Assembly (NCBI GenBank): GCA_028279405.1
Contig: JANQNU010000036.1
Span: 310,001-374,000, forward strand
Length of the DNA stretch: 64,000 nt
From: Phycisphaerae bacterium
Lineage (GTDB): Bacteria; Planctomycetota; Phycisphaerae; UBA1845; Fen-1342
Direction: 5' to 3'
The notes under the pieces were generated by a model. That model had not been told where the DNA came from. It ran no database searches and saw only the letters and a list, made by a program, of their open reading frames with translations. This document shows positions 35,561 through 52,690 of this stretch, one piece after another. The position numbers were made by a program, and so were the translations under genes. Every line of letters begins with the position of its first letter. Position 1 is the stretch's first letter.

Positions 35561-35585
35561 ACACCCTGGCGTTTCACCGGGGTGT
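35561..35585. terminator. Hairpin between HARE-HTH and methyltransferase genes
   Basis: ACACCCTGG (35561-35569) pairs with CCGGGGTGT (35577-35585) over 9 positions including one G-U, with a 7-base loop. It lies 30 bases after the HARE-HTH stop. No T-run follows, so termination is uncertain. Confidence 0.4.
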
Positions 35586-35702
35586 TGCTCGTGTGTCAGC
35601 AATTCTCTCTCAAGCAGCCTTCCCGTTCTCGTTTGCTCGCACACCCGATCGCCTGCACCAATTCAGTTCAAACGTTTAAGACCCGCGCTGCCTCGGGCAG
35701 GT

Positions 35703-37010
35703 ATGACTGATGCGCTCGCCCGATTCCGCAACAAGATCATCGTGACCGACGTATTGAACGGGCTTGCCAAGCTGCCCGACAACTCAATCGATTGCGTGAT
35801 GACGTCGCCGCCGTACTGGGGCCTGCGCGATTACGGCATCCCGCCAACCGTGTGGGACGGCGATCCCGGTTGCCGTCACAAGTGGAAGCCAGCGACAGTC
35901 AACTCTGCTCGTGAGAAGCGTAACGCCGCGACCAAGAAGGCCGGCGGATCCGCGGTCCGAAACAACCAACTCGGCGCCGAGCTTGGAGCAAGAGATTTCG
36001 GGCAGTTCTGCGTTCATTGCGATGCATGGCGAGGATGCCTCGGCCTTGAACCCACGATCGACCTTTTTCTCAAGCACATGCTCGCTGTCTTCGACGAGGT
36101 GAAGCGCGTTATGAAGCCGACCGGCACCTGCTGGGTCAATCTCGGCGACAGCTACGCCGGCGGCTGGGGCATGAAGCGTGTAGGGCGACCGTCGAGTGGC
36201 CAAGCTAACGCGATTCGCGTACGGTCAAAATCGCTCTGCCTTGTGCCGCATCGGTTCGTCATTGCAATGTCGGAGCGAGGTTGGATCGTTCGCAACCACA
36301 TCGTCTGGTACAAGCCGAACCACATGCCGAGTTCGACGCGTGACCGGTTCGCGAACTCGTGGGACCATGTGTTCCTGATGACGAAGCAGCGACGCTACTA
36401 CTTCGACCTCGACGCGGTCCGCGTGCCGCACCGCTCGCTACCGCGACAATCCGCCAACGCCCGCTCCAAGACGCGCGAAGGCGATCTTAGCCGTGACGTC
36501 GGGGCGGACGGAGCAACCGCGTTCCACCCCAACGGCAAGAATCCTGGTGACTGCTGGACTATTGCCACCCGCCCGGCCGCATTCGCTCACTTCGCGACTT
36601 TCCCGGAGAAGCTGGTCGAAACGCCGATCAAAGCGGGCTGCCCGCGCCTCGTCTGCAAGCAGTGTGGCGCTCCAAAGCGCGACATCCGCTACCGTCCGCC
36701 GAACCCAAACGCCTTCGCAATGAACTACCGCGACGCCCAAGCCGGCAAGCATCTCCCCGGCAAGAAGCGTCTGCGGCCCGACGAAGTTAAGCGCTACGAC
36801 GACCGCGCCTACTCATCTAAAGGCGGTACCTATACCGTCGCCCCTGGCTGCCCATGCAACCGTGGCTACGTGCCCGGTATCGTCCTCGATCCCTTCGCTG
36901 GCACCGCTACTACGTGCGTTGTCGCCAAACGACTGAGACGGAATTATGTCGGCTTCGAAATCAATCAAAGACACGCTGTTCTCGCTGACGATCGATTACT
37001 CAACGTTTAG
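35703..37010 (+). CDS. DNA methyltransferase (N4-cytosine or N6-adenine, beta type)
   Basis: The 435-residue protein has the catalytic motif IV TSPPYWGLRDYG (from residue 34) near the N-terminus and the SAM-binding motif I DPFAGTATTCVVAKRL near the C-terminus, the beta-class order. The S-P-P-Y form is commonest in N4-cytosine enzymes but occurs in some adenine enzymes. The insertions between the motifs contain paired Cys (CVHCDAW; CKQCGAP; GCPCNRGY) that could bind zinc. No matching restriction endonuclease lies directly beside it; the HerA-nuclease gene and HARE-HTH gene upstream are possible partners. Confidence 0.87.
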   Translation: MTDALARFRNKIIVTDVLNGLAKLPDNSIDCVMTSPPYWGLRDYGIPPTVWDGDPGCRHKWKPATVNSAREKRNAATKKAGGSAVRNNQLGAELGARDFGQFCVHCDAWRGCLGLEPTIDLFLKHMLAVFDEVKRVMKPTGTCWVNLGDSYAGGWGMKRVGRPSSGQANAIRVRSKSLCLVPHRFVIAMSERGWIVRNHIVWYKPNHMPSSTRDRFANSWDHVFLMTKQRRYYFDLDAVRVPHRSLPRQSANARSKTREGDLSRDVGADGATAFHPNGKNPGDCWTIATRPAAFAHFATFPEKLVETPIKAGCPRLVCKQCGAPKRDIRYRPPNPNAFAMNYRDAQAGKHLPGKKRLRPDEVKRYDDRAYSSKGGTYTVAPGCPCNRGYVPGIVLDPFAGTATTCVVAKRLRRNYVGFEINQRHAVLADDRLLNV

Positions 37011-37121: not shown

Positions 37122-39035
37122 ATGTCGTCAGCAACTCTTACAAGCTTAGCAATGTTGAAAGTAGCTGTCGACAAGGGGGGTGATTACCTCGACTATTTAC
37201 GTCCGTTTGTGCTACAGGTACTTGTAGATGACAGACCCGATCCTATCCGGGACGACGCGGTCAGAGAGTCGATCAAGCGTCAGTACGGATTGGATATCCC
37301 TCCGCGCGCTGTTCAGATTGTCTTAAAACGTCTGTCCAAGACTCATGCGATAAAAAGGGAGATGGGAACTTTTCACATAACGGGGGGCCTCCCTGACCCA
37401 GGGATATCTGTACGAAGAGCGGCGGCGCAGCGACACATCCGCGCAGTTGTTGATGCGTTGCTGGAATTTACGAAAAACACGCCTAAGCCGATTCAGTCAT
37501 TTGATGAGGGTGTCGACGCCATCTGCGCCTTTTTGTCCGAATTCGTCGTGGACTGCCTTCGAGCATATGTACAGGGAACTGCTATACCCAAGATTTCCGG
37601 AAAGAAAAACAGTGACATCATTTTGGTTAGCGAATTTGTCATTCACCTGCAAGATAGTGCACCGGAAAGGTTTGATAGCTTTAACATACTCGTTCAAGGA
37701 CACATGGTTGCAAATGCACTGCTCTGTCCGGATCTGAACGATGCGCCAAATAACTACAAACGGTTAACGTTCTACTTTGACACTCCTTTGCTTGTTCGTT
37801 TGCTTGGACTGGAGGGCGACGCCGAAAGGCGCGCCGTGGCTGAACTGGCGAAACTAATTCAAAGGCTGAAGGGAAGGATTGCTGCCTTTTCACACTCGCG
37901 CGAGGAACTGGAGCGTGTTCTTAAGGGGGCCGCGGCGCACATTGAGGCGCTTGACGGCCGGGGCGCGATTGTAATGGAGGCGCGGCGACGAGGGACAACC
38001 CAATCCGATTTGCTCCTACTAGCAGGCCGCCTTGATGATGAACTCGCCAGTTGCGGAATTTCCATTATGCCGACTCCAAGATACATTGAAGAGTTCCAGA
38101 TCGATGAGAGAGTATTTGATAAAGTTCTTGAAGATGAATTATTTTACTATAACCCGCGGGCGAAAGAGTATGACATTAACTCGGTTCGCAGCATTTATGT
38201 ACTGCGCTCAGGAACATCGCCCACAACGGTCGAAAAATGCAAGGCGATCCTTGTAAGCAGCAACGCCGCCTTTGCGCGCGCTGCCTTTCGGTACGGGCAA
38301 CAACACGAAGAATCTCGGGAGGTCTCAAGCGTTATTGCCGATTTCAGCCTTGCGAACGTCTCATGGCTCAAGGCTCCGTTGGGAGCGCCGTTCTTGCCGA
38401 CCGCTGAAGTTCTTGCCTTTTCATACGCCGCGCTTCAGCCGTCGACTGCGTTGATGAGTCAGTATCTTCGAGAAATCGACAAACTCCTTAAGAATGGAAG
38501 GGTTTCGGCCAACGACCACCAACTTCTACGAAGTAATGTACTTGCACACGACGAGCTCGTGCGTCTCACGCTGGGAGATGATGAGGCATTGTCGGAAGAG
38601 CTCATTACCGAAACGTTGAGGCGAGTGTCGGACGAAATCAAAAAAGAAGAAGCAGACAAGTTAGACAAGGAAAAGACTGAACATAAAAAAACAAGAGAGC
38701 GCCTAGGCCGAGAGCGATCGGAAAAGATGCTGTTCCGGCAACGCCTTTATTGGCGCCTCCGGCGGCGCGCCAAGGTGTTCTCTTGGATCATTGCCGGCGT
38801 TCTGGGCGTCATGTTGGTCATAGGGGTTGTTGCCGGAGCCGGGTTGGTATCCACCAACCCGGTCGTGGGCTGGGGCCTTGCAGCTCTGTCCGGCCTGGCT
38901 ACGCTCGCGGGTGTTGTGGACCTAATACTTGATTTCTCCGTGAGACAGATGAGAGTCCGCCTAGAAGAATGGTTGCTTGCTCGGGCCATTCAGCGAGAAC
39001 TAGCGGCGGGAATCGACCTAACGGAAGTTAGCTAG
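37122..39035 (+). CDS. Putative wHTH-PIN-like protein with two C-terminal membrane helices
   Basis: GGGAGG lies 6 bases before the ATG of this 637-residue protein. It begins with a winged-helix-like region (about 40-90; RESIKRQYGLDIPPRAVQIVLKRLSKTHAIKREMGTFHI). The centre has a PIN-like order: a strand with Asp (LTFYFDTPLLVRLLG), a helix with Glu (HSREELERVL), then a strand ILVSSNAAFARAA where PIN domains carry their fourth element. A coiled coil (about 510-545) and two membrane helices (about 563-583 and 590-610) end the protein. Membrane anchoring of a possible RNase fits an abortive-infection effector, but this is inference. Confidence 0.7.
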   Translation: MSSATLTSLAMLKVAVDKGGDYLDYLRPFVLQVLVDDRPDPIRDDAVRESIKRQYGLDIPPRAVQIVLKRLSKTHAIKREMGTFHITGGLPDPGISVRRAAAQRHIRAVVDALLEFTKNTPKPIQSFDEGVDAICAFLSEFVVDCLRAYVQGTAIPKISGKKNSDIILVSEFVIHLQDSAPERFDSFNILVQGHMVANALLCPDLNDAPNNYKRLTFYFDTPLLVRLLGLEGDAERRAVAELAKLIQRLKGRIAAFSHSREELERVLKGAAAHIEALDGRGAIVMEARRRGTTQSDLLLLAGRLDDELASCGISIMPTPRYIEEFQIDERVFDKVLEDELFYYNPRAKEYDINSVRSIYVLRSGTSPTTVEKCKAILVSSNAAFARAAFRYGQQHEESREVSSVIADFSLANVSWLKAPLGAPFLPTAEVLAFSYAALQPSTALMSQYLREIDKLLKNGRVSANDHQLLRSNVLAHDELVRLTLGDDEALSEELITETLRRVSDEIKKEEADKLDKEKTEHKKTRERLGRERSEKMLFRQRLYWRLRRRAKVFSWIIAGVLGVMLVIGVVAGAGLVSTNPVVGWGLAALSGLATLAGVVDLILDFSVRQMRVRLEEWLLARAIQRELAAGIDLTEVS

Positions 39036-41022
39036 CGTCGGCCAATCGTGCGTATGGCGCCGGATGCCAATATGCAAGGTGATTGTCGGACGTGTACAGG
39101 GTAATCCAAAGCCGGAGGCGGACGGCAAGGGTCGGCTCGGCTGGGTGGCTTGGCAGTGGGCTGTTCGCTTCGAATGGAAGCGAGGAACTGGCTTTCATCA
39201 GCAACTCGAAAACACGGGCGGCACGTATCTTCAGAAGGGCGCTCTTTAATGCACATGGGCGAATACCCAACTGCGAGATGGCGAACGCGTCAGCCGACAT
39301 CTCGTAGCCGAAGCTGTTCTCTAGGGTGCCGGCGAACCCGCTCCCGAAGAGCGTGATCCGGCCCAGCAGGTGGAGGATGTTGTGCCGGTGGCAGTGCCGC
39401 AGTACGTGATGCGCCAGTTCGTGTGATACGACAGCGTCGAGTTCATCCGGATGGAGCACCTCTAGCGTACCTTCGGAGATTTCGATGTAGCGACGCGAAC
39501 CGCCCAGCCCGAACACATGGGCGGCGGCCCGACAGTCGTTGCTCGGGACAACGGCCAACAGCACGGAAGCTGCATCGAGTTGGTGCAATGTCGCTTCACG
39601 CAACCGGGAGCGAACAATCCGACACGCATCGTTCTCCACATTCTTAAAGATGGTTCTCGCAACCCGACGGCGACACAACACGTAGTGCGAGATGGAACAA
39701 ATCGGTAAACCGATGGCTAGTACGCCGGCGGATCCAAGCGCGACCCGAGCAATCACCGTCCACCAGATCGGATGACCGCCGATCAGGAATGCGACAGCGC
39801 GGCCAACACCTTCTGCAACGCTGGTATCTCGGAGAGCTATGAGGCTCCCGTCGACGATAGCGTCAAGCCCGATTAGCAACACGCCTATGATCCCAATCCA
39901 TACAAGAATACCGAAGCCGATCCACGTTATGGTTAGCGCGGCTTGGAGGCTGCGAAGGAAACGCGCCCCAGACACCGCACGCTGCGTACTTACCGCGGCT
40001 GCGTCTCTCTGCAGCCGAAGACAGGATCGCATAAAGAGATCGACTTGCCGGAGACTGAGGAGCAACATCGCGATCCCGAGCACCAGCGATAGAACGGTTC
40101 CGCCCATAAACACGAACACAAGAACTCGTATTTGCGCGACTTCGTCGGCGTTAGAGCCGTGAGGGGTTGCCAGTGACTCCCAGGCGAACTGCGGAATAGT
40201 CCCTAATCGGTACAGCGGCAAGAATGCTGTGAGCATGAAGAGCAGGCCCAGCACGCTCGTGATCGCCGAGGCTGCCGGCGAGAGCCTCTCCACCACGCCG
40301 GGCCGTCGGAAGCTCAACGCGATCAGAAAGCACAGCGATGCACCGACGGCGAGTAGGATCAGGACCACGAAGGCGCCGAATACGCGGGCAGGCGTCACAG
40401 CGAGATCCAACTCGCTAGCCGTCGCCACGAATCCGCCAATGAGCAGCGCGCCATAGAGGCCAATCAACATCACGCCCGCAAACGTCGACCGCACGCGCTG
40501 CCCAAACGGTTCGCGCGCAAGCAGCTGGTCGTGTTCGTTGATCCGATCAGCTATTTCGTCGAGAAGCAGCGTAGCAAGCCGACTCCCCCGTAGAATTAGC
40601 AGCTCGCAGGAAACAAGGGAGAGCGCGATGCCGACAACCGCCACCGCTAGCATGTCCCCGGAGATACTGGCTGATTGAGCAAAACGGATAAGCGTTCCAT
40701 GGACGCCATATGCGAACAGCACGGCAGCAATGACGACGACCGCGAAAAGCATCCATCGCCCGGGCCGAGCATATCGCATGTCGAAGCGAACAGACGTCCT
40801 CTCGACGGGTGTATCGCGGCGGACATCCCAACTGAAGTCGTGCCGTAGCCCGAATCGATCGAGGACTTTCGCAACGCCTCGGATGCGGGATGGCGATCTC
40901 TCCGTTGTGGCGCTGGCACCGGTCTCTCGTAGAACCACGTCAGTAATCAGTTCGACGAGCGCTTCCGGCTCCATCTTCTCTACGGAATACAGGCTGCCCC
41001 AGGATCGGGATGAGGTGTGCAT
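39028..41022 (-). CDS. M48-family membrane metalloprotease
   Basis: A start at 41022 (preceded by GGAG 9 bases upstream; 41037 is an alternative) gives 664 residues with about nine or ten hydrophobic helices. The C-terminal soluble domain has the zinc motif SHELAHHVLRH (HExxH) and the third-ligand region GYEMSADAFAISQ, the M48 pattern of HtpX/Ste24-like enzymes. The preceding YIEISEGTLEVL with LHPDELDAVV is also typical. It may degrade damaged membrane proteins or act in a defence response. It ends 8 bases inside the convergent wHTH-PIN gene and is divergent from the next gene. Confidence 0.85.
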   Translation of the reverse strand: MHTSSRSWGSLYSVEKMEPEALVELITDVVLRETGASATTERSPSRIRGVAKVLDRFGLRHDFSWDVRRDTPVERTSVRFDMRYARPGRWMLFAVVVIAAVLFAYGVHGTLIRFAQSASISGDMLAVAVVGIALSLVSCELLILRGSRLATLLLDEIADRINEHDQLLAREPFGQRVRSTFAGVMLIGLYGALLIGGFVATASELDLAVTPARVFGAFVVLILLAVGASLCFLIALSFRRPGVVERLSPAASAITSVLGLLFMLTAFLPLYRLGTIPQFAWESLATPHGSNADEVAQIRVLVFVFMGGTVLSLVLGIAMLLLSLRQVDLFMRSCLRLQRDAAAVSTQRAVSGARFLRSLQAALTITWIGFGILVWIGIIGVLLIGLDAIVDGSLIALRDTSVAEGVGRAVAFLIGGHPIWWTVIARVALGSAGVLAIGLPICSISHYVLCRRRVARTIFKNVENDACRIVRSRLREATLHQLDAASVLLAVVPSNDCRAAAHVFGLGGSRRYIEISEGTLEVLHPDELDAVVSHELAHHVLRHCHRHNILHLLGRITLFGSGFAGTLENSFGYEMSADAFAISQLGIRPCALKSALLKIRAARVFELLMKASSSLPFEANSPLPSHPAEPTLAVRLRLWITLYTSDNHLAYWHPAPYARLADAS

Positions 41023-41115
41023 CCGTTCCGACTCCATCGGCGTTGGTACGGTAGCAATGACTCGGTGCGAATTGTACCATTGCTAAACGCCCCGGTCGCA
41101 TCGTGGAGGATGGCA

Positions 41116-42015
41116 GTGGCCCAACTCGATCAAAACAACATACCGGCAATAACACTCCGGATCGTCGAGGCGTTCATTACCAAACATCGTCCCGATGAGA
41201 CGTTCCTACTGTCGTCGTTGCCGCGATTCATCGGACGGCTGAGCGCTGGTGAGGCAGACTCGTCCGGACGCGCCGTGACAGACTTCGGGCTGCCGGTGGA
41301 TGGTGGTACCGGCGGACCGCGGATTGCGACGCCATATGCCACGATGACAGTCTGGGCAGTTCTCCAGGAGCTACGACAACTCGGTCTGGAGCCGACGCGG
41401 GACAAGGTCGAATCGGTCGTGCGGCACGCGGCGCAGCAGTTCGGCGCGACAAAGCCACTGATCGAGGAACTCGCTATGCATCTCACCGCACAACTCATGG
41501 CGGAATTTGGTAGCCCGACACCGCCAACGGAAGAAATCGGGTCCGAAACGTACATCGTCGAGTGGTTCGACCGGCGATGTGGTCCGATGGAAGAGCCGAC
41601 GCCCGAACAGGGTTCCTTCGGCGAACCGGATGTCGAGTCGAGATTCCGCAAGAAACGAAGTCAGTTTGATCTCTTCGTGGATGAACCGCGATTGGCGATT
41701 TATATCGCCGGCTCCAAGGAGAATCGGTGGCCACTGCTCGAGCCGCAACAGTGTCGTTTCCTGTTCCAGGTGCTCCAGGCGTTCAAGCGGCGGTTCCTTC
41801 CATACGACATGATCGAGCCCAACAACGATCGCCTCCCGGAAAAGGGCCGGTCGCGTACAAAGAGCGAGCTCAACAATCACCTCGGGGGCATCCTCAACTC
41901 GATCGTCAAGGCCAAGAAGGGTGCGGAACGCTACAGCGTTGAAGGGCAATTTCCGTACTGCTGGATTCGCCGATCGAATGAGCCTTCATTGCTGGCTGCT
42001 GAACGAAGTAGTTAA
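41116..42015 (+). CDS. Unknown protein with possible C-terminal winged helix
   Basis: A GTG at 41116 is chosen because GGAGG lies 6 bases upstream, while the in-frame ATG at 41110 touches it. The 299-residue product has a helical N-terminal third (ITLRIVEAFITKHRPDETFLLSSLPRF; ELRQLGLEPTRDKVESVVRHAA), an acidic middle, and a C-terminal segment (LLEPQQCRFLFQVLQAF...KSELNNHLGGILNSIVKAK) that resembles the winged helix at the end of some bacterial regulators. It is divergent from the M48 protease gene with a 93-base gap, so it may regulate that gene. Confidence 0.65.
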   Translation: MAQLDQNNIPAITLRIVEAFITKHRPDETFLLSSLPRFIGRLSAGEADSSGRAVTDFGLPVDGGTGGPRIATPYATMTVWAVLQELRQLGLEPTRDKVESVVRHAAQQFGATKPLIEELAMHLTAQLMAEFGSPTPPTEEIGSETYIVEWFDRRCGPMEEPTPEQGSFGEPDVESRFRKKRSQFDLFVDEPRLAIYIAGSKENRWPLLEPQQCRFLFQVLQAFKRRFLPYDMIEPNNDRLPEKGRSRTKSELNNHLGGILNSIVKAKKGAERYSVEGQFPYCWIRRSNEPSLLAAERSS

Positions 42016-42311: not shown

Positions 42312-42491
42312 ATGAACCCGTGGACGTTGAACGCTCTTCGATTGCTGCAGGACCTGATCCGCTTCGCGTTGTGGGCGGCGTTGATCATCAACGCCGGCAT
42401 GGCCGCGATCTTTTCCATCTGGTTCGTCGGCCATTTCCTCTGGTCGCTTTCCGGATGGGCGCAGCGAGTCCTCTTCTCCAACCCGTGGTGA
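42312..42491 (+). CDS. Small membrane protein, first gene of HerA-Hsp70 operon
   Basis: The ATG follows AAGGA by 8 bases. The 59-residue product has two hydrophobic helices (FALWAALIINAGMAAIF and FVGHFLWSLSGW), probably one hairpin in the inner membrane. No family is recognised. Only 4 bases separate it from the next gene, so it belongs to the operon and could anchor the complex at the membrane, as two other products of the operon also carry membrane helices. Confidence 0.62.
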   Translation: MNPWTLNALRLLQDLIRFALWAALIINAGMAAIFSIWFVGHFLWSLSGWAQRVLFSNPW

Positions 42492-42495
42492 AACG

Positions 42496-42900
42496 ATGCA
42501 ACCGATCCGAAGTGAACGAACGCGGAAGGTGGCTTCGTCGTCGTGGGACGCGAGCGACCACCCCGTTCAACAGGACGACACCGACCACACACTATCGCAG
42601 GCCGGTGCGATCGAATCCGACCGCACGACGCAACAGATGGCCTGCCACTGCGGTTGCCTGCGACCGCCGGCCGGGTTCTGTGCCGAATGCAATCAGCTGA
42701 TTTGCGAAGTGTGCTATGCCCGCTGTTCAGGCTGCAACAAGCCGATCGGCCCGTGCCACTACGTCAAATCGCAAGACCGCACCGGCCGCGTGCTTGTCGA
42801 GTGCCGGTCGTGCAACGGCGCCCGCAAACGCAAGTCACTCATCACCGGTCTGTGGCGTGGGATCGCCTCACTTGTGATCGACTTCGAGGATGAACGATGA
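42496..42900 (+). CDS. Cys-rich zinc-binding protein
   Basis: The 134-residue protein has a disordered N-terminal half and a Cys cluster in the second half: CHCGCLRPPAGFCAECNQLICEVC, then CSGCNKPIGPCHY and CRSCNGA, enough ligands for two or three zinc ions in a treble-clef or B-box-like arrangement. A hydrophobic segment (LITGLWRGIASLVIDF) lies near the end. Its stop overlaps the HerA gene start as ATGA, so the products are probably made in equal amounts and may interact. Confidence 0.68.
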   Translation: MQPIRSERTRKVASSSWDASDHPVQQDDTDHTLSQAGAIESDRTTQQMACHCGCLRPPAGFCAECNQLICEVCYARCSGCNKPIGPCHYVKSQDRTGRVLVECRSCNGARKRKSLITGLWRGIASLVIDFEDER

Positions 42901-44678
42901 ACGCACGTCACGATGACATTCCTGATCTGCTGCATGACATCGTCTATGCCGAGCAGAACCAGTTGATGGAGGACGCACCAGCGCAGGCAATGATGCGGGC
43001 CATCCGGTTTGGCGTCGGCGACGGCCTGCCGATCGCGGAGTTGCAGAAGCGTGTCCGCGACCACAAGCAGGACCGCTTCCGCGAGGGCGTTTTCTTGGCC
43101 GCCCAGCTCGCCCGCGGCGAAATCGTCCTTGGCGGTGGCCAAAATGGGCGCGAGCTCCGCATCCCGCTACAGACGCTCAATCACCATACGCTGACGGTCG
43201 CGGGCACCGGCTCGGGGAAGACCAACCGAGCACAACTCGTTGCCCTGCAAGTCGCACCGCGCGTCCGCGGCCTTTGGCTTATGGACTGCCGCAAGGCCGA
43301 GTTCGCGAAACTGAAGCAGGCACTCGAACGGATCGGCGTCCAACTCGCAATCGTTCGCGCCCGGTCGATGCGCTTCAATCCGTTACAGGTGCCGGTCGGC
43401 GTTGAACCCGCCGAGTGGATTCCGCGCCTCGCCGACATGCTCGTGATGGTGCTGACGCTTCCGCCGCGAGCGTCGAAGGTCCTGCAGATCGTCCTGCGTC
43501 GACTCTACGACGGTGCCGGGATCTTCGCTGGCGGCAAGCAATTCCCGACGCTGTTCGACCTGTTCGACGTCGTGAAAGCGGACAAGCAGCTCAACCCACC
43601 GGCCCGGTCGGCGATTCTCGACAACCTCGAATCGCTGTTCGCGTCGCTCGGCCCCGACGTGCTCGGCTACCGCCGCGGCTGGACGACGCACGACCTCGCC
43701 CGCCTGCCAATCAACTTCGTCCTCGGCGGCGTCTCCGAAGTCGCCCAGAACCTGATCATCAACTGGCTCCTGCTGGCGGAATTCAACAGCCGCGTCGCCC
43801 GCGGCGTCTCGAACCGCCCGCTCGACCTCTTCGTCGCGATCGACGAGGGCCAACGCCTTCTCGCCGCGTCGTCCGCCCAGAACAACGCCCTGGCCGACCT
43901 GTGGCCGCTTGTCCGCGGCACAGGGATCGGAGTCGACGTCGCGGTCCCGACCGGCCACGGCCTGATGCCCGCTGCAATGTCGTTCAGTGCGACGAAGTTC
44001 ATGGGTCGTTGCGGGAGCGCGTCCGACTACGAACTGATAGGACGGTCGATGGGGCTTTCGCGCGAACAGCTCGACTGGGTCTTCCATCACACGCGTCCCG
44101 GACGCTTCGTCGCGCAGGTCGGCGATGGACCGTGGCGATACCCATTTGTGCTCGACGTCCCGATGCTGCAGTTGCGGTCAGTGACCGATCTTGATCGAGA
44201 GGACCTCGGGCCACTGGCCGGCCTCGAAGTCGTGTCGGCGACGTCGGAAGGCGCGACCGAAACCGTGTCGGCGACCGATCCGGCGAGGCTAGCGTTGACC
44301 ACGCCGGGAACGAGTTCCACGGCATCGCCAATTACATCTACTAATGGTCCCGCAACCGGGCACGATCTCGCGGGCGCACATGATCCCATAACCGCACACG
44401 AGGCGACCCTCGGCGACGAACGTGACTACCGTTTTCTGAAGACGGTGGTCGACCACCCGCTGCTGCGGTCGAGTGCATATCCGAAGCTGGCCGGGGTTGG
44501 GCCGCAGACGGCGATCAGGATCCGCCATCGACTGATCGCGGGAGGCCTGTTGCGCGAGCACCGGGTCGAGTCGGCCGGCCGCGGTCGCAGTGCGATCGTG
44601 CTCGAAGCGACCCCGACCGGCGTCGTCGCCGTCGCCCAACATCAACATAAGGAGGAAGGGGGTCCGTCATGTTCGTGA
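42897..44678 (+). CDS. HerA/FtsK-type ATPase with C-terminal wHTH
   Basis: The 593-residue protein has Walker A AGTGSGKT (102-109), a LWLMDCRK strand after it, and Walker B LDLFVAIDEGQ (309-319), as in HerA/VirB4 DNA translocases. After a Thr/Ser-rich linker (about 450-500), a winged-helix-like segment (FLKTVVDHP...RIRHRLIAGGLL...TPTGVVAV) corresponds to that in the ATPase at 32871. It lacks the C-terminal nuclease domain of that protein; a similar nuclease is encoded by the next gene, which overlaps by 10 bases. Confidence 0.82.
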   Translation: MNARHDDIPDLLHDIVYAEQNQLMEDAPAQAMMRAIRFGVGDGLPIAELQKRVRDHKQDRFREGVFLAAQLARGEIVLGGGQNGRELRIPLQTLNHHTLTVAGTGSGKTNRAQLVALQVAPRVRGLWLMDCRKAEFAKLKQALERIGVQLAIVRARSMRFNPLQVPVGVEPAEWIPRLADMLVMVLTLPPRASKVLQIVLRRLYDGAGIFAGGKQFPTLFDLFDVVKADKQLNPPARSAILDNLESLFASLGPDVLGYRRGWTTHDLARLPINFVLGGVSEVAQNLIINWLLLAEFNSRVARGVSNRPLDLFVAIDEGQRLLAASSAQNNALADLWPLVRGTGIGVDVAVPTGHGLMPAAMSFSATKFMGRCGSASDYELIGRSMGLSREQLDWVFHHTRPGRFVAQVGDGPWRYPFVLDVPMLQLRSVTDLDREDLGPLAGLEVVSATSEGATETVSATDPARLALTTPGTSSTASPITSTNGPATGHDLAGAHDPITAHEATLGDERDYRFLKTVVDHPLLRSSAYPKLAGVGPQTAIRIRHRLIAGGLLREHRVESAGRGRSAIVLEATPTGVVAVAQHQHKEEGGPSCS

Positions 44679-45151
44679 TCGCGGCCCTCTTCGTCGGTAC
44701 CGTCCTGCTCCAACTCCTCCACATGCGCGGCGGCGCTTTCCACAACCTGCTCGTGGCCGAGGCTGTCAGCGTCTTCGATCGACACGGCTTCGAAACCGTT
44801 CCCGAATGTCCGGTCCGTTTGCCCGATGGTCGGACGGACTTCGTCGACCTGCTCGCCACCCGCGACACGACCGTGATCGCGTGCGAGATCGAAACGACTC
44901 CGCGGAACGCGCTCTTCAACATCCGCCGAGCGGACGCGGCACGGCTGCCGCTGTTCGTGATCGTGCCGACCCGAGCGGTCCGCGCGACCGTTTGCCGACA
45001 AGTCGCGAGCGTAGTGGTAACGAGCGAGTCCGGGCGGAAAAAGGGTGGCGTCGAGCGGATTTGGATTCTGTTGCCGGACGAGTTGCCGCAGGCACTTACG
45101 AATTGTTTTCCCTTGATTTCCCCGGCGAATGGCGCCGCGAAAACGAAATAA
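44669..45151 (+). CDS. Membrane-anchored PD-(D/E)XK-like nuclease
   Basis: AAGGAGG precedes this 160-residue gene. An N-terminal hydrophobic helix (FVIAALFVGTVLLQLL) is followed by a compact alpha/beta domain: HGFETVPECPV, DGRTDFVDLLA (Asp57/Asp60), VIACEIETT (Glu73, Glu75) and LPLFVIVPT. The order and the E-x-E variant match the C-terminal domain of the fused HerA protein at 32871 (GGHIDVLA, IGIEIETGQ, RMLVVAT). It therefore looks like the split-off nuclease subunit of the HerA ATPase just upstream, tethered to the membrane. Catalysis is not proven. Confidence 0.72.
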   Translation: MFVIAALFVGTVLLQLLHMRGGAFHNLLVAEAVSVFDRHGFETVPECPVRLPDGRTDFVDLLATRDTTVIACEIETTPRNALFNIRRADAARLPLFVIVPTRAVRATVCRQVASVVVTSESGRKKGGVERIWILLPDELPQALTNCFPLISPANGAAKTK

Positions 45152-45174
45152 AAACCCCGAAAAGGAGACATGAC

Positions 45175-45408
45175 ATGCGCATCAAGTGGGATCGGCTGAT
45201 CGCGCTCGTCCTCGTCACGACGGCGGCGGTCCTGCTGATCGGCAACCGCAACGAAGTGGTCGGCTTCCTCACGACCATGAAACACGTCGGCCCCGGCCAC
45301 TCGCCGGAGCAACTGACGATCGGCCTGATGGCGTTTGGCCTCAGCGTCGTCGCGATCCTCGCCGCCCTGAAAATCGCCCTCAACGCCAACGACAAGGACC
45401 AGCCATGA
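45175..45408 (+). CDS. Small two-helix membrane protein
   Basis: AAAGGAG lies 7 bases before the ATG; a longer upstream frame is out of keeping with this site. The 77-residue protein has two membrane helices (LIALVLVTTAAVLLIG and IGLMAFGLSVVAILAALKIAL) joined by a short polar loop. Its stop overlaps the GrpE gene as ATGA. It may fix the chaperone or nuclease part of the complex to the membrane. Confidence 0.65.
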   Translation: MRIKWDRLIALVLVTTAAVLLIGNRNEVVGFLTTMKHVGPGHSPEQLTIGLMAFGLSVVAILAALKIALNANDKDQP

Positions 45409-46043
45409 ATCCGAACGACCCCCAACTCACGCTCGACGAACCCCTGGAGCGGACGCTCCCCGGCCACTCGCCGGCTACACCTGAGACCGCGACGGACGCC
45501 GATAGCGACGCGTTCGCCGATGTTGCCCGACGGCTCGAAGACCTGACCGAGATGCAGGCCGCTTTGCTGATCGAGATCCAGGAATTGAAGGCCCAGGACC
45601 GCGTGCTGACGGACCTGCAGGATCAGTGCCAACGGTACCGCGAGAGCGCGCACCAGCGCGATATTGTTCAGCCGCTCGTGCACGCCTTGATCGGATTGGC
45701 CGATCGCGTCCGTAACGACCTTCAGCGACTTCGACAGTTTATCACGAAGGCGGCCCCCGGATCGTTGAACATCGTGGCGGCCCACTACGTTGAAATGCGG
45801 CAGGCGGATCTCGCGGAGATCGAGGCCCAACTCCACACGCTCGGCGTCGAGCCGTTCGAAAGTGCGAGCGACCGCTTCGACGCGGCCCGGCAGACCTGTC
45901 GGCAACGTATCGCGGCACCGTCGGCCGACCTGCACGGCTGCATCGCCGACCGGCTGCTCCCCGGCTACCAGCGGGACAACCGCGTCGTCCGCCGGGAGCA
46001 GGTCCAGGTTTACGTCACCACTACCACTACTAATGGAGATTAA
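45405..46043 (+). CDS. grpE: GrpE-like nucleotide exchange factor
   Basis: The ATG at 45405, overlapping the previous stop, begins a 212-residue protein. An acidic N-terminus precedes a coiled coil (VARRLEDLTEMQAALLIEIQELKAQDRVLTDL), then the GrpE four-helix region (DIVQPLVHALIGLADRVRNDLQRL) and the C-terminal beta domain with the family pattern LGVEPFE...DRFDA...RQ and LPGYQRDNRVVRREQVQVYV. GrpE releases ADP from Hsp70; an Hsp70 gene follows after 2 bases. This is a dedicated, divergent copy rather than the housekeeping gene, judging by its company. Confidence 0.82.
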   Translation: MNPNDPQLTLDEPLERTLPGHSPATPETATDADSDAFADVARRLEDLTEMQAALLIEIQELKAQDRVLTDLQDQCQRYRESAHQRDIVQPLVHALIGLADRVRNDLQRLRQFITKAAPGSLNIVAAHYVEMRQADLAEIEAQLHTLGVEPFESASDRFDAARQTCRQRIAAPSADLHGCIADRLLPGYQRDNRVVRREQVQVYVTTTTTNGD

Positions 46044-46045
46044 CG

Positions 46046-47542
46046 ATGAGTCTCACCATCGCGATCGATTTTGGCACGACCCAGACCAAGGCGGCATACG
46101 TCGACCAGTCGGGCAAGCCGGTCATCATCCCCAATGCCCGCGGCGAGGATGTCACGCCGACGGTGCTGTACTGCCCCGCGTCGGGTCCGCCGATGATCGG
46201 CACCGACGCCGTCGAACAGGGCGTGCTCGACCCCGACCGCGTCATGCGACATTTCAAGTTGAAGCTCGGTACCGGTGACAACCTGCTGCCGGGCGGCGGC
46301 TCGCCTATGACGGCGCGCGAGGCGGTCACGCTGTTCATCAAGGAATGGAAGGCGTCGGCGGAGGCGTTTCTCGACTTCCCGATCACGGAGGCCGTCGTCA
46401 CCTGCCCGGCGGACTTCCGCGACGACCAGAAGCAGGGCCTGATCGATGGCTTCGCGGCGGCCGGCATCAAGGTCGCCCGCCTGGTCGCGGAACCGACGGC
46501 GGCCGGCCTGGCGTACGCCTTGGAGAAGTCGACGAGCAACGCCCGCATCATGGTCTACGACCTCGGCGGCGGAACATTCGATGTCTCAATCCTGGAAGTG
46601 CGCGGCGCTCAGATCGACGTCATTGCCACCGCCGGAGTTCGCGAGCTGGGCGGCATCCACTTCAGCGCGGCCCTCCGCGAACTCGTAATGCCGTCGCTCA
46701 ACGGCAAGGGCGACCTGTCCGACCCGCTCTCTCAATTTGACCTCGCCCAGCGGATCGAACGGGCAAAGGTCTCGCTCTCGTCGCAACGCGAAGTGCCGAT
46801 CATCGTCAACCAGACGGTCGTCAAGATCACGCAGGAGCAATTCCACAAAGCGGTCGACCCGCTGATCCGCCAGACGCTCGACGCATGTGACCGTGCGATT
46901 GCCGAAGCAGGTCTCACCTACGACAAGATCGACCGCGCCATCCTCGTCGGTGGTGCCGCCCGGCCGGCGTACATCCAGAAGTGCGTCGCCGACCACACCG
47001 GGCTCGTACCGAAGACCGACATCGACCCCGAGCGCGCGATTGCGTTCGGCGGAGCGCAGGCAGCGCTCGTGCAGATGGCAAAACAGGGTCGGACGGCGAC
47101 GCTCCGCGGTCAGGTGATACCCGCACCGGAGGTTTTCATCCGCGAGATCACCGCGCACGGCGTCGGCTGTGCGGTCGCCGAAAAGAACGGTACGCGTTCG
47201 CGGCTGGTCAACGCGGTGATCATTCCAAAGGGCACGCCGATCCCGTGCAAGCGGCTCGACACGTTTCGGCTCGAAGACGAAGCCCAGACCGCCGCCCGCG
47301 TCGAGATCCTGCAAGGGGATGCCGACGCCGACCGCGACGACTGCCTGCTCATCGGCGAGATCGTGCTCGACAACCTGCCGACGGAGGCGAAGCGCAGCGA
47401 ACGCATCCAGGTCGAGTACGTCATCGACGACAACGGCATGGTCGCCGCGACGATCACCGACACCGTCAGCAGTCGCAAGGAATCGACATCCATCGACTAC
47501 CGCAAGGGCATCAAGCCGACCAACAAGCCGGCGTGCGTTTGA
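46046..47542 (+). CDS. Hsp70/DnaK-type chaperone, lidless
   Basis: The 498-residue protein has the complete Hsp70 ATPase domain: phosphate-1 IAIDFGTTQTKAAY, LVAEPTAAGLAYAL, phosphate-2 YDLGGGTFDVSIL, and adenosine motif ILVGGAARPAYIQ. A substrate-binding beta domain follows (about 385-490; VGCAVAEKNG, VNAVIIPKGTPIPCK, DDNGMVAATITD). It ends there, so the helical lid and EEVD-like tail of DnaK are missing. It is about 140 residues shorter than DnaK. It sits between grpE and a vWA gene, with no dnaJ nearby. It probably remodels a specific complex of this operon rather than folding proteins in general. Confidence 0.88.
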   Translation: MSLTIAIDFGTTQTKAAYVDQSGKPVIIPNARGEDVTPTVLYCPASGPPMIGTDAVEQGVLDPDRVMRHFKLKLGTGDNLLPGGGSPMTAREAVTLFIKEWKASAEAFLDFPITEAVVTCPADFRDDQKQGLIDGFAAAGIKVARLVAEPTAAGLAYALEKSTSNARIMVYDLGGGTFDVSILEVRGAQIDVIATAGVRELGGIHFSAALRELVMPSLNGKGDLSDPLSQFDLAQRIERAKVSLSSQREVPIIVNQTVVKITQEQFHKAVDPLIRQTLDACDRAIAEAGLTYDKIDRAILVGGAARPAYIQKCVADHTGLVPKTDIDPERAIAFGGAQAALVQMAKQGRTATLRGQVIPAPEVFIREITAHGVGCAVAEKNGTRSRLVNAVIIPKGTPIPCKRLDTFRLEDEAQTAARVEILQGDADADRDDCLLIGEIVLDNLPTEAKRSERIQVEYVIDDNGMVAATITDTVSSRKESTSIDYRKGIKPTNKPACV

Positions 47543-47582
47543 ACTGAGGACGGCAACTGAATCCCTAACCGGAGGACTAGTG

Positions 47583-48233
47583 ATGCATACCATGATGGAC
47601 CGCGTTGCTCGCTGGATGGCGGGCGCCCCTGCGCCGTCGGCGGCTGTCGAAGTCGCAACACTGCAGCCATATCGCGACGCGATCATTGTCATCGATGTCT
47701 CGGCCTCGATGGACGAGACCGACTATGAGCCTACGCGGCTCGCTGCGGCCCAAGCGTCGGCACGCACCTACGTCGAGCGTCTTGAACAGGAAGAGCCGGA
47801 GGCCACAGTCTCGATCGTCACCTTCAGCAATTACGGCCACATCGCGTGCCCGCCGACGCGTGTCGGGGATTCGGTGCCGATCCTGAATGCGATCGACGAA
47901 CTGGAGACCATCTACTCGACCAACCTGACGGCCGGGCTGTGCAAGGCCCTCGATATCCTCAAGCAACTTGGATCCAACAATGGACAGGTCATCGTGCTGT
48001 CCGACGGACACCATAACGGCCCGCGACGGCCACGTCGTGTCGCCGAGAAGCTGCGCAACCGCGGCATCGTCGAGTGCGTCGGCATCGGCGGCAGCCCCAT
48101 GGACGTTGACGAAAAACTGCTGCGGGTGGTCGCGTCGTCGAAACCCGACGGCGGCAAACGCTACCGCTGGATCGGCGATCGCGAACAACTCGTCCAGCAT
48201 TACCGTCAGCTGGCCGGGCGTATCACTCGTTAG
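47583..48233 (+). CDS. vWA-domain protein (TerY-like)
   Basis: GGAGG lies 9 bases before this ATG (a GTG 3 bases upstream is possible). The 216-residue protein is nearly all von Willebrand A domain with an intact metal site: IIVIDVSASMDE (D-x-S-x-S), STNLTAG (Thr) and VIVLSDGHHN (Asp). It resembles stand-alone TerY-type vWA proteins, which act as metal-dependent adaptors with kinases, phosphatases or ATPases in stress and anti-phage operons. Here it follows a Hsp70 gene, and the vWA may recruit a client. Confidence 0.85.
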   Translation: MHTMMDRVARWMAGAPAPSAAVEVATLQPYRDAIIVIDVSASMDETDYEPTRLAAAQASARTYVERLEQEEPEATVSIVTFSNYGHIACPPTRVGDSVPILNAIDELETIYSTNLTAGLCKALDILKQLGSNNGQVIVLSDGHHNGPRRPRRVAEKLRNRGIVECVGIGGSPMDVDEKLLRVVASSKPDGGKRYRWIGDREQLVQHYRQLAGRITR

Positions 48234-48253
48234 TAATTGACGCGGAAGTGACC

Positions 48254-48640
48254 ATGAGTCAGCAGCGTAAGACGGACAATCGTCACGATCAGCGCTCGGT
48301 GCCAGGGGAGCCGAGCCTGGTCGCGCTGCTTGCGCGGATTGAAGCGCATCTCGACGCGATCAGGAACGCTCACGAAACCGCCAATCACGAATGGCTGACC
48401 GTCGCCGAAGTAGCGGCAGAACTCCGCGTCAGCCGGGCGACCGTCGAACGACTCATCCACGCCGGCCACCTCCAGGCGGCGACCATCACCACGTCCCAGG
48501 GCCGCGGCAGCCGGCACAGGTTCCGAGTCCGCCGGGCTTGGATCGACGCCTTCCTCGAAAGCCAATCAACGCCGAAACCCCACGCCCAACGCCCCCGCCG
48601 CCCGCGATACGACGGTCCGGACTACCTCGAAGGGCTGTAG
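48254..48640 (+). CDS. Excisionase/MerR-type helix-turn-helix protein
   Basis: The 128-residue protein has a central helix-turn-helix of the DNA-binding excisionase family (WLTVAEVAAELRVSRATVERLIHAGHL, then a wing ending RFRVRRAWIDAFLE) between a disordered N-terminus and a Pro/Arg-rich tail. It could regulate the operon or act as a directionality factor for the integrase gene 0.9 kb further on. GGAAG precedes the ATG at 48254; a GTG at 48248 is the alternative. Confidence 0.78.
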   Translation: MSQQRKTDNRHDQRSVPGEPSLVALLARIEAHLDAIRNAHETANHEWLTVAEVAAELRVSRATVERLIHAGHLQAATITTSQGRGSRHRFRVRRAWIDAFLESQSTPKPHAQRPRRPRYDGPDYLEGL

Positions 48641-49572: not shown

Positions 49573-50970
49573 CTAAAGGGCCGGTCTGTTGAGTCCGGCA
49601 CCTGACTCGAAAATCCGCCCGTGCACATGATCGACGACCGCACGGAGGCGGTCGAAGCCGATTTCCTCGATGTAGTGGCCGGCCATGCCTTCGATCGCGT
49701 GGCCCATGATGACGCTGACGGCATGGTTGTCGCGGACTTCGTCGGCGAAGGTGCGGAAGACGTGACGGAGCGTGTAGAAGCCCCGCTGCGGCTTCTTGAG
49801 GTCGGTTCGGACGAGGAGGTCCTGGAACCACTTGCCGAGGCGGTCGACGTAGGTCACGCGTTTGATGACGCCGTTCCCGGAGTGCTTGACCAGGTCGCGC
49901 ACGAGCGGTCGGCCGGACTCGGTGCGGAACACCAGATTCTCGGCGTCACCATCGATCGCCGGTCGGCGTTTGGATAGCAGGGCTTCCAGGGCCGCGACGG
50001 TCTCGTCCCATAGCGGTACGACGCGGAGTACGGCGGTCTTCGGCCGCTCGAAGGTAATTCGAGGGCCGTTCCTCGCAGAACCGTTCGTGTAGTTGAGGCC
50101 GCGATCCGTAGGGATACCACGATCAGTATGGCCTGGGATACCCCGATTCGAATCGCCAGGGAGACCACGATCAGTATCGCCTGGGATAGCACGATCAATA
50201 CTGCCACCGACGCCGCCATCCAGGTCCAGCGCCGCGATTGGTAGGGCGGCGCAGTCGGTGTTGCCAAAGCCGCCGTTGATGCCGAGGAGGATTGCGGCCT
50301 GGAGCTTCAGGTCGGCGGCGCCTAACAGCATGCGGATCTCGGCGGGCGTCAGCAGGTTCTTGCCGTGCTCGCGTTCGCGTTTGGCCCGGCTGCGACGACG
50401 GTCAGCAGCCGTCGGTTTGGCCAGGGCTTCGCCCCAGCGCGGGACGCGGTCGATCAGGCCGGTGCTCTCCGCCCAGAAGTAGGCCATGCGGAGGATCGTC
50501 AGCGTGCGGCCGAGGGCATGGACGCCGAGCCCCTTGCGCCCGGTCAGTCCATGCCGCACGAGATGTGCCCGATATCGAATGAGTTCGTCCGCCGTCACGT
50601 GTTCGGCGGCGCGGGACGGGCTGACGTGCTGGGCGAAGTGTCGCAGTACTCGGCGGTAATCCTCGAACGACCGCGCGTGGATCTGACCGGCGGCGACGCG
50701 ATCGCTCTGGTACTTCAGGAATCGATTGGCGAGTTCCTTGACGGTACAATACTGCGCGCCCTCGGCGGTGCGGGGCACGCGGCCGGCACGAATGTCGGCG
50801 ACGCGCTCCTCGTACCGGGCCAGGGCGGCGTGCGGATCGTCCCACGCGCCGAAGTGATAGAGCTTGCCGCGGATCTTCTTGACCCACTGACCGTTGGGAT
50901 GCGGGGTCAGCGGAAAGGATGGATACGGCTTGATCGGTTTGGCCCGACGGCCACGACTGACGCTCGGCAT
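49573..50970 (-). CDS. Tyrosine recombinase/integrase with tandem-repeat insertion
   Basis: The ATG at 50970, 8 bases after GGAGG, gives 465 residues: an N-terminal arm-binding region, a SAM-like core-binding domain (about 90-180; YCTVKELANRFLKYQ) and a catalytic domain. Visible catalytic parts are RPKTAVLRVVPL (Lys), YTLRHVFRTF (Arg), MGHA (His) and HYIEEIGF (Tyr). At the first Arg site it reads NGGFGNTDCAALP, without Arg. Between this site and the Lys hairpin lies an insertion of about 45 residues made largely of 8-residue repeats (GDTDRGLP, GDSNRGIP, GHTDRGIP). It probably integrates into the adjacent tRNA-Arg gene. Confidence 0.85.
   Translation of the reverse strand: MPSVSRGRRAKPIKPYPSFPLTPHPNGQWVKKIRGKLYHFGAWDDPHAALARYEERVADIRAGRVPRTAEGAQYCTVKELANRFLKYQSDRVAAGQIHARSFEDYRRVLRHFAQHVSPSRAAEHVTADELIRYRAHLVRHGLTGRKGLGVHALGRTLTILRMAYFWAESTGLIDRVPRWGEALAKPTAADRRRSRAKREREHGKNLLTPAEIRMLLGAADLKLQAAILLGINGGFGNTDCAALPIAALDLDGGVGGSIDRAIPGDTDRGLPGDSNRGIPGHTDRGIPTDRGLNYTNGSARNGPRITFERPKTAVLRVVPLWDETVAALEALLSKRRPAIDGDAENLVFRTESGRPLVRDLVKHSGNGVIKRVTYVDRLGKWFQDLLVRTDLKKPQRGFYTLRHVFRTFADEVRDNHAVSVIMGHAIEGMAGHYIEEIGFDRLRAVVDHVHGRIFESGAGLNRPAL
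50112..50207. repeat. Four 24-bp tandem repeats inside the integrase gene
   Basis: Units at 50112, 50136, 50160 and 50184 share the pattern GGATACCACGATCAGTAT.GCCTG with a few changes. As 24 is a multiple of 3 they keep the integrase frame and encode 8-residue units. The second unit holds a perfect 12-bp palindrome CGATTCGAATCG. Confidence 0.85.
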
Positions 50971-51322
50971 CGTGACAACCTCCACGAGGGGTGGCGCGGT
51001 TCCGTCTGAGCATAGCACGCTGCTAGCGTGCACGGCTCGTTCACGAGCGCGTTTTTTATCAAACGCGCGGGCCGGCGATTTGTTTATTGCGCGCGCCGCG
51101 AAATCGCCGCGCACCGGCCGTTTGTTTTTCGGCCGCGAAACATCGCGCGAATCGCGTGGTCGGCGGGCGATGGCGATCGCCACCGCCGCAATCCGACCTG
51201 TGGATTCCGGGTTCGCCGGTCGTGTTGGAAGGATAGCGCCTGGGTGCGGTTGTCGGAACGGTTGTCGGGCCGCAAACGCGGTGTTTGAAAAAGAATTATA
51301 AACCGTTTTTTGATAAACGGTT
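50971..51322. other. Hairpin-rich gap between integrase and tRNA-Arg
   Basis: This 352-base gap carries inverted repeats GGCGATTT (51074-51081)/AAATCGCC (51101-51108) and CGGCCG (51115-51120)/CGGCCG (51130-51135) around a T-rich loop. It must contain the integrase promoter and may contain integrase arm-binding sites. No gene was recognised. Confidence 0.5.
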
Positions 51323-51396
51323 GCGCCCGTAGCTCAGTTGGATAGAGCAGCGGACTTCTAATCCGCAGGTCGCAGGTTCGAATCCTGCCGGGCGCG
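51323..51396 (+). tRNA. trnR-UCU: tRNA-Arg (anticodon UCU)
   Basis: The cloverleaf folds fully: acceptor GCGCCCG (51323-51329) with CGGGCGC (51389-51395), D stem GCTC/GAGC, anticodon stem GCGGA/TCCGC around CTTCTAA with anticodon TCT at 51357-51359, and T arm GCAGG-TTCGAAT-CCTGC. The discriminator is G and CCA is not encoded. The 3' part is repeated at 52648-52690. Confidence 0.95.
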
Positions 51397-51398
51397 TT
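51356..51398 (+). repeat. Attachment-site-like repeat within tRNA-Arg 3' half
   Basis: The 43 bases from the anticodon to two bases past the tRNA end are identical to 52648-52690. A tRNA 3' half duplicated directly downstream is the usual trace of tyrosine-recombinase integration. Confidence 0.85.
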
Positions 51399-51665
51399 AC
51401 TAAAACCCCTAAAAAACAAGAACGAAACGGCCTTGCGGGTGTCCCGGCGAAAGAGCGGGTTGATCGCTCGGTCCCGTTGTGGTCCAATAGAGTCAGGGAA
51501 GCGAGCGGCGGATAACAGATCCGAAGCGCTATCGCTCGCCGCCCGTTCGGCCGACCGCCCAACGGCTTGGGCGGCTCCTTCGGAAGACTCGATCTCGCTC
51601 CACAGTTCGTCGGAAAGCAATGTGAACGCCATGATCTCGCCTCCATGCTCGTCGTGGCGATCCTT

Positions 51666-52343
51666 TCATCGGAAATCCTCGGGGTTTCGAAGCAGCCTCT
51701 TACGATTGGCAGCAAGTCTTTTTGCCAAATCAACTGCGTCGGATTCAGCCTTCTCGCGGGACATGCGATGTCGGTCGTCGCGAAATTCCTGGTACTCAAC
51801 ATGAATAGAATGTGATTCCGTCACGCCGAGATAATGCGCAATAGACTCGATGTGACCGTCCAAGTGGTTCATGTGTTCACGCACGCCGCCGGGTTGGAAT
51901 CCGAATTCACCTTTTGACGTCAGCGTTACCAGCATCTTGCCATCTAAAATCGGTTCAAGCGGAAAGTCACCGCGGTCGAGGTCAAAGCTAAAGGTCTTGC
52001 CAATACGCACAACTTGGTCAAACCAAGCCTTCAGAGACGCGGGCATACCATAATTGTACATCGGCGTGCCAAGGACAATGACATCTGCTGACTCAAGTTC
52101 TGCGATTAGTGCATCTGAAAGTGCAAGTATCGCATGTTGTTCCGCCGTCCGTTCGTTTTCGGCAGCAAAACAAGCAGCAATCCACTCCTGCGAAACGAAT
52201 GTTGGAGGATGCAAGCCTACATCCCGCCTGACGACCGCATCGCGCGGTCGTTCAGCGAGCCATGTCTTCACGAAACTCTCCGAGAGTGCCCGAGTAATCG
52301 AGCGTTCGACTCGAGCACTCGCGTCGATGTGTAACAACTTCAT
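51666..52343 (-). CDS. azoR: FMN-dependent NADH azoreductase (AzoR/AcpD family)
   Basis: This 225-residue flavodoxin-fold protein begins MKLLHIDASARVERSITRALS, with the phosphate-binding Ser-x-x-Ser region. It has the FMN signature LGTPMYNYGMPASLKAWFDQVVRIGKTF and the later TSKGEFG turn. AzoR reduces quinones and azo compounds with NADH and protects against electrophile stress. The gene is enclosed by the 43-bp tRNA repeats. A 19-bp inverted repeat lies 27 bases upstream of its start and may control it. AAGGAG precedes the ATG on the minus strand. Confidence 0.9.
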   Translation of the reverse strand: MKLLHIDASARVERSITRALSESFVKTWLAERPRDAVVRRDVGLHPPTFVSQEWIAACFAAENERTAEQHAILALSDALIAELESADVIVLGTPMYNYGMPASLKAWFDQVVRIGKTFSFDLDRGDFPLEPILDGKMLVTLTSKGEFGFQPGGVREHMNHLDGHIESIAHYLGVTESHSIHVEYQEFRDDRHRMSREKAESDAVDLAKRLAANRKRLLRNPEDFR

Positions 52344-52369
52344 ATTGTCTCCTTTTGCGTTTGTCGCTT

Positions 52370-52495
52370 AGTACGACAACGCGGGTTAGCAAGATACCGC
52401 CAAACGAGAGCGGTTCGACCTTGTGAAAACCGCGATTCGGCGATCAAAACTCAAATGCTTCGTGACACCGCAAGCATAACCCGCGTTGTCGTACT
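52370..52495. promoter_or_regulatory. Widely spaced perfect 19-bp inverted repeat upstream of azoR
   Basis: AGTACGACAACGCGGGTTA (52370-52388) is the exact reverse complement of 52477-52495, with 88 bases between. It lies upstream of azoR within the tRNA-flanked segment. It could be paired operator sites for a regulator (looping) or the ends of a vanished small element. Confidence 0.55.
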
Positions 52496-52647
52496 GGAGG
52501 GAGTCGGAAAGGCTCGCACTTGGACGAGTATATCGGTCCAGTTTCGGTCCTGTGGAGCGTTGTGGTGGGTGGTTTTTTGTACGGGTTACTTTCGGGTCGG
52601 GCCCCCCTGACGTGCTCAGAATCGACCCTGCGACCTAGCACTCAGGA

Positions 52648-52690
52648 TTCTAATCCGCAGGTCGCAGGTTCGAATCCTGCCGGGCGCGTT
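52648..52690 (+). repeat. Second copy of tRNA-Arg 3' end (attachment-site-like)
   Basis: Forty-three bases identical to 51356-51398. The 5' half of the tRNA is absent, so this is not a gene. With the tRNA copy it bounds a 1.29-kb segment holding azoR. Confidence 0.9.

Follow-up and report, generated by a model that had tools for sequence, protein, structure and literature searches.

A pump-nuclease operon with an exchangeable vWA-centred cassette, a probable backbone of tRNA-integrating elements in Planctomycetota

What might an operon do that joins a DNA-pump ATPase and a nuclease to a GrpE, a shortened Hsp70 and a von Willebrand factor A (vWA) protein? Nine such genes lie at positions 42312-48640 of a 64,000-nucleotide stretch of a Phycisphaerae genome (assembly GCA_028279405.1, contig JANQNU010000036.1, forward-strand positions 310,001 to 374,000; hereafter the window). 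An earlier sequence-only reading had proposed them as a candidate undescribed system, plausibly of defence, with a private Hsp70-vWA switch. Our analysis indicates that the operon is the conserved core of an undescribed mobile-element family and, judging from gene content and neighbourhood, probably a backbone module of elements that integrate at tRNA genes in Planctomycetota, mainly in Phycisphaerae.

The nine open reading frames (ORFs) are all on the plus strand and joined by ATGA or short overlaps, in agreement with the tight same-strand packing first described. They encode, in order, a 59-amino-acid (aa) protein with a single transmembrane helix (smTM; 42312-42491, kept in 22 loci); a Cys-rich, probably Zn-binding protein (42496-42900), whose Cys pattern is kept in 23 loci; an FtsK/HerA-class DNA pump ATPase with a C-terminal winged helix-turn-helix (HerA1; 42897-44678); a predicted PD-(D/E)XK nuclease (44669-45151); a 77-aa protein with two transmembrane helices (2TM; 45175-45408, kept in 19 loci); GrpE (45405-46043); an Hsp70 with a nucleotide-binding domain and the beta part of the substrate-binding domain (SBD-beta) but no lid (46046-47542; PF00012, 1e-74); a vWA protein in which DxSxS and DG motifs are conserved (47583-48233; PF13519, vWA_2, 2e-18); and an excisionase-type helix-turn-helix (HTH) protein (48254-48640; HTH_17, 1.6e-12; excise TIGR01764, 6.6e-9) that adjoins the integrase in relatives. 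The identities first proposed for these genes were borne out, by family scans for Hsp70, vWA, GrpE and HTH and by structural models for the two enzymes. GrpE gave a marginal match as a single protein (2e-5), and its family profile matched GrpE in the PDB at 8e-10. Against DnaK, the Hsp70 profile runs out where SBD-beta ends (DnaK residues ~480-512), and homologues of full length have 498-505 aa, so the description of this chaperone as lidless holds.

Dozens of loci in Phycisphaerae carry the gene set, which is sparser in the rest of the phylum. The ATPase has matches at E <= 1e-3 in 50 of the 397 genomes of the class, about two dozen of them close, and is present in four additional genomes elsewhere in the phylum; a scan of named genomes with tighter alignment gave 13 loci, nearly all in metagenome assemblies of Phycisphaerae. 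The order smTM-Cys-ATPase-nuclease-2TM-GrpE-Hsp70-vWA was found again in other genera at ~30-55% identity, which bears out the sequence-only reading in its expectation of conserved synteny for the HerA, nuclease, grpE and hsp70 genes and in joining the pump-nuclease pair to an Hsp70-vWA unit. Distances between ATPases track the distances between their partners in the module (Mantel r 0.83-0.92, p 0.0005), and the correlation with integrase distances is 0.59. Because the ordered set recurs in other genera and its genes co-vary, the operon is not a chance assembly. Its sole near-constant part is smTM-Cys-ATPase-nuclease. Searches of plasmids, phages and IMG/VR with the ATPase, and of plasmids with the nuclease, returned no matches. 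The set also appears to be uncatalogued, as had been suggested: the PADLOC library gave no full-system match, only weak similarity to mad8/HerA and mad1, and within open-licence text we found no paper joining these parts. MADS membership, suggested by the mad8 and mad1 matches, was dropped, as these two matches are weak and no other MADS gene is present.

Models place the ATPase within the FtsK/HerA superfamily. The 593-aa protein (AlphaFold2 model, mean pLDDT 83.5) carries conserved GxGxGKT and DE motifs, the Walker A and B of a RecA-like FtsK/HerA motor, and its closest folds (VIA Z) are DndH-C (32.9), VirB4 (29.6), Sulfolobus HerA (SsoHerA; 27.1, over 324 residues) and TrwB (25.9); SIR2-HerA, DUF4297-HerA and HerA-NurA complexes also score well. 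Residues 508-571 are modelled as a winged helix. Residues 1-63 are modelled as helical, where a true HerA has the HAS beta-barrel, and a Pfam scan found neither HAS-barrel nor DUF87. The protein is therefore not a canonical HerA, although it is of HerA type and has the winged helix, as the sequence-only reading had said. Its 160-aa neighbour is, by its model (pLDDT 80), a PD-(D/E)XK nuclease of predicted activity, with an alpha-beta3-alpha-beta core and a conserved acidic site (D60 and E75 in 24 of 24 homologues, E73 in 23, E46 in 22). The third residue of this site is E (ExE), a type also present in BamHI. The best fold matches (Z) are AF1548 (9.7), Can2 (9.2) and BamHI (7.3), and XisH-family folds (2okf, 8.1; 2inb, 7.4) are among many other PD-(D/E)XK matches. 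The nuclease had been described as membrane-anchored, but an N-terminal membrane helix occurs in just three homologues and most start at MRG.

The smTM, Cys-rich, ATPase and nuclease core adjoins a recombinase, often with a tRNA gene, at one end of an island. Informative loci are the 19 in which the contig continues for 5 kb or more past the module, and 18 of them have a site-specific recombinase within ~7 kb downstream; the binomial p is ~1e-18 even if 30 recombinases per 5 Mb are assumed. Tyrosine integrases predominate, as a rule with the excisionase-type HTH gene ahead of them, and some loci have large serine recombinases (Pfam-confirmed in G107 and G176, alike by eye in G088 and G743), so that two unrelated recombinase families stand at the module's end. 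In the window, the element's tyrosine integrase (49573-51183, minus strand; PF00589 at 0.0013, below cut-off, with R/H motifs by eye) lies between the module and a tRNA gene. Within its ORF an in-frame 24-nt tandem repeat of 3.6 copies (50111-50197) appears to be a repeat insertion in the protein. On other elements, in L160, L165 and L167, related HTH-integrase pairs lack the pump module and stand instead with genes that look primase/ParB-like or ERCC4-like by eye.

tRNA genes stand beside the integrase in several loci, and paired repeats at tRNA ends delimit a 112.8-kb segment at tRNA-Asp (G018), a 56.8-kb segment at tRNA-Glu (G005) and a 47.5-kb segment at tRNA-Arg (G673); with the window's own, four elements in all have paired attachment (att) repeats. 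None were found for G083, G265, G142, G160, G176 and G204 within the sequence fetched. In the window's contig the element has split a tRNA-Arg gene. An intact tRNA-Arg(TCT) beside the integrase, the reconstituted attachment site (51322-51397, plus strand; contig 361322-361397), has the crossover TTCTAA in its anticodon loop (51356-51361). An exact 45-bp 5' half of this tRNA is found at 293237-293281 of the same contig (C57), and a displaced 43-bp 3' half lies on the plus strand at 52648-52690 (contig 362648-362690), at the far end of a second small insertion. The halves share TTCTAA and rejoin to the exact intact tRNA. Together with the intact copy they imply two adjacent insertions, one of ~68 kb with the module and a 1.3-kb remnant. 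Thus a recombinase and paired att sites delimiting the segment, which define an integrative mobile element, are both present. Where the ~68-kb element ends on the left is less sure, since the genes at the far left resemble host genes by eye. Two Ser/Thr kinase proteins, with TPR and FGE-sulfatase fusions (9848-16755), lie in the left part of what is presumed to be the element, and further left are genes resembling a type II secretion system (by eye), which adds to the uncertainty of this border. The 1.3-kb remnant (51398-52690) carries a quinone-oxidoreductase/azoreductase-like gene (by eye).

Sequence comparison shows that GrpE-Hsp70-vWA is an optional, exchangeable cassette centred on the vWA protein. 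In G142 it is replaced by vWA-PP2C-kinase, the TerY-P triad (Pfam-confirmed); the same triad stands at the cassette position in G160 (by eye), and PP2C and kinase genes do so in G483 (Pfam-confirmed). The window's own cassette, a vWA protein with Hsp70 and GrpE, has no kinase or phosphatase and is thus not a TerY-P triad. In G318 the position is occupied by an FHA protein whose N-terminus looks vWA-like by eye, together with Tubulin_2 and RuvB-like proteins; G375 has a similar arrangement (by eye), and in L045 (2852-8395) an FHA protein, a Tubulin_2 protein and a RuvB-like AAA ATPase follow the pump-nuclease pair. G673 and L089 have the core without any cassette. The GrpE-Hsp70-vWA trio also occurs in other company: it stands beside very divergent HerA ATPases and a recombinase, and in L177, L184, L186 and L190 it adjoins a protein of ~800 aa that, in the two cases examined (L184 and L190), reads as a multi-transmembrane ATPase of TraD/VirD4 appearance, on Pfam scores below cut-off together with context. 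Next to it in L177 and L184 is a Replic_Relax-like protein, whose scores, also below cut-off, are supportive only; as a universal partner Replic_Relax was rejected, being absent from most genomes. No integrase was seen within the stretch looked at in L177, L184 and L186.

What stays constant is therefore a pump with its nuclease, the Cys-rich and small membrane proteins, and a recombinase. VirB4 and a relaxase, the marks of a conventional integrative and conjugative element (ICE) with a type IV secretion system (T4SS), do not sit with the module: among 24 genomes, PF03135 (VirB4) was found in one and PF03432 (MOBP relaxase) in two, none on a module contig, other MOB families not having been searched. 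The elements therefore appear T4SS-less, and with the Thermus analogue described below this leads us to favour a DNA-mobility backbone with a vWA-gated pump. A hexamer of the ATPase, steered by its own winged helix and held at the membrane by smTM and 2TM, would move double-stranded element DNA following excision, either into another cell with no T4SS involved or for partition, and the nuclease might process the DNA ends or origin. The vWA protein and its partner pair, Hsp70/GrpE or kinase/phosphatase, may assemble or disassemble the pump, and such control could couple mobility to host stress. That the purpose of the module is DNA transfer or movement seems to us evenly balanced, and the complete explanation, an element backbone with a double-stranded DNA pump-nuclease under a vWA-centred switch, has slightly better than even chances. 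The further proposal of a so far undescribed class of self-transmissible, T4SS-less integrative elements, whose FtsK/HerA-class pumps move double-stranded DNA and are gated by interchangeable vWA-centred switches including a dedicated lidless Hsp70 with its own GrpE, is tentative and less likely than not.

The best analogue in logic is ICETh1 of Thermus thermophilus, a tRNA-inserted ICE whose HerA-class pump and NurA-like nuclease are needed for DNA donation, the TdtA of transjugation (PMC5365140, PMC7767461). The elements studied here share with it integration into a tRNA gene with direct repeats, a XerC-type integrase beside a compact FtsK/HerA-class pump and nuclease operon, and a DNA methylase nearby (PMC5365140, PMC7767461). 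The comparison with TdtA is drawn on gene content, and there are differences: the ICETh1 nuclease belongs to the NurA family whereas the one here models as PD-(D/E)XK, no Hsp70, GrpE, vWA, smTM or Cys-rich protein is described for ICETh1, and its ~15 kb contrasts with 47-113 kb. HerA-NurA itself is matched only in the motor, the HAS barrel and the NurA partner being absent. Actinomycete ICEs offer a second parallel, as they are small, carry a lone DNA-pump ATPase with small membrane proteins next to int/xis, and conjugate double-stranded DNA by TraB/FtsK-type transfer without a T4SS. Their FtsK-type TraB has a different membrane part, and they lack the nuclease-chaperone-vWA set; TraB-like clt repeats sought upstream of the module occurred at chance level only.

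Several observations weigh against this explanation. Transfer, excision, gating of the pump and the activity of the nuclease are inferences. G071 retains 2TM-GrpE-Hsp70-vWA-HTH-integrase without the pump, the one exception among the informative loci, G375, has a recombinase upstream only, and a related integrase family is also found on elements without the module, which must then be optional rather than required for integration. Moreover, a HerA/DndH-class pump with a nuclease is also a defence architecture, with DndH as the top fold match, and conflict systems often use vWA/TerY-P signalling (PMC11090510).

These last points lead to the main rival, element-borne defence or superinfection exclusion, in which the pump and nuclease would destroy phage or plasmid DNA as it enters, with the vWA cassette (Hsp70/GrpE, kinase/phosphatase or tubulin set) as sensor and trigger. 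It remains the main rival since similar pump-nuclease pairs and vWA/TerY-P proteins occur in conflict systems and the islands carry CBASS and other defence genes, namely a CBASS cyclase, patatin and capP as cargo in the window's island and Dnd/Ssp-like genes (by eye) in that of G673. The exchange of signalling cassettes on a fixed effector is likewise typical of conflict systems (PMC11090510, PMC7159879). Yet the known relatives differ in composition. TerY-P is known alongside CoCoNuT or restriction systems (PMC11090510); conflict systems of the GAP1-N2 GTPase kind share an HSP70-GrpE pair in a multi-gene operon (PMC7159879) but centre on a TRAFAC GTPase with FNIII and DnaJ proteins, none of which is present here; and DndFGH, SIR2-HerA and DUF4297-HerA share the ATPase fold class but have other partners. 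The module also lies steadily between cargo and xis/int, with either recombinase family, and is rarely found outside integrative elements. The joining of pump-nuclease and Hsp70-vWA unit claimed by the sequence-only reading thus stands, but its defence reading is less supported, because the Hsp70 unit is optional, the core adjoins a recombinase, often with a tRNA gene, at element ends and the trio accompanies TraD/VirD4-like ATPases. An exchangeable-switch core in tRNA-inserted elements makes element-borne DNA movement likelier than a stand-alone antiviral system, and we regard defence as possible but rather unlikely.

Less probable still is a factor for excision, replication or segregation, in which the pump and nuclease resolve, partition or control excision of the element within the cell, with no cell-to-cell transfer. 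The adjoining xis-like HTH and integrase would fit, FtsK-class pumps do partition DNA, and the nuclease fold is like that of the XisH family, whose members are annotated as controlling factors of fdxN-element excision; but that match is no better than those to other PD-(D/E)XK folds, same-family integrases serve elements without the module, and the small membrane proteins suggest a role at the envelope. That unrelated cargo operons were packed by chance near an integrase is hardly credible: islands do gather unrelated operons, but synteny in many genera, the co-variation of ATPase and partners, and the fact that the cassette has repeatedly been lost or swapped as one unit refute it.

If the DNA-mobility explanation is right, control of DNA movement by a chaperone cycle would represent a new principle of regulation, and one DNA pump would carry a modular switch of Hsp70-GrpE, kinase-phosphatase or tubulin type, built in every case round a protein that is vWA or vWA-like. 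Pumps of the HerA class are already known from integrative elements, and there is a fair chance that gating one by a chaperone is a novelty in principle. Little has been described of gene exchange and conjugation in Planctomycetota, and most of the genomes tested lack VirB4 and MOBP relaxase. A module serving transfer or maintenance would explain how defence-laden islands move and provide a genomic signature for finding them. Were it defence instead, it would still be an uncatalogued pump-nuclease system.

The conserved unit reaches beyond the nine genes first delimited, as several genes recur upstream. HerA2, a second FtsK/HerA-class ATPase (32871-34829, plus strand; Pfam DUF87 3.5e-8, PADLOC mad8 2e-14, DndH 1e-7), is represented by upstream homologues in 12 loci; a membrane M48 metallopeptidase (39028-41037, minus strand; PF01435, 1.9e-8) recurs in 8; and a ~330-aa protein with a winged-helix appearance by eye and no Pfam match (wH; 41017-42015, plus strand) has homologues upstream of smTM in 12. 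Right after HerA2, a HARE-HTH protein and a type II-like DNA methyltransferase (34896-37007) possibly form a separate restriction-like set. The CBASS (cyclic-oligonucleotide-based antiphage signalling system) operon spans 27271-32444, with the cyclase at 29788-30966, the patatin phospholipase effector at 31293-32444, a capP-like M78 protease at 27271-28167 (minus strand) and perhaps capH at 28145-28540. Beside it lies a second tyrosine-recombinase-like gene (25978-27225), whose relatives occur in the elements of G005 and G673; both of these elements also carry HerA2.

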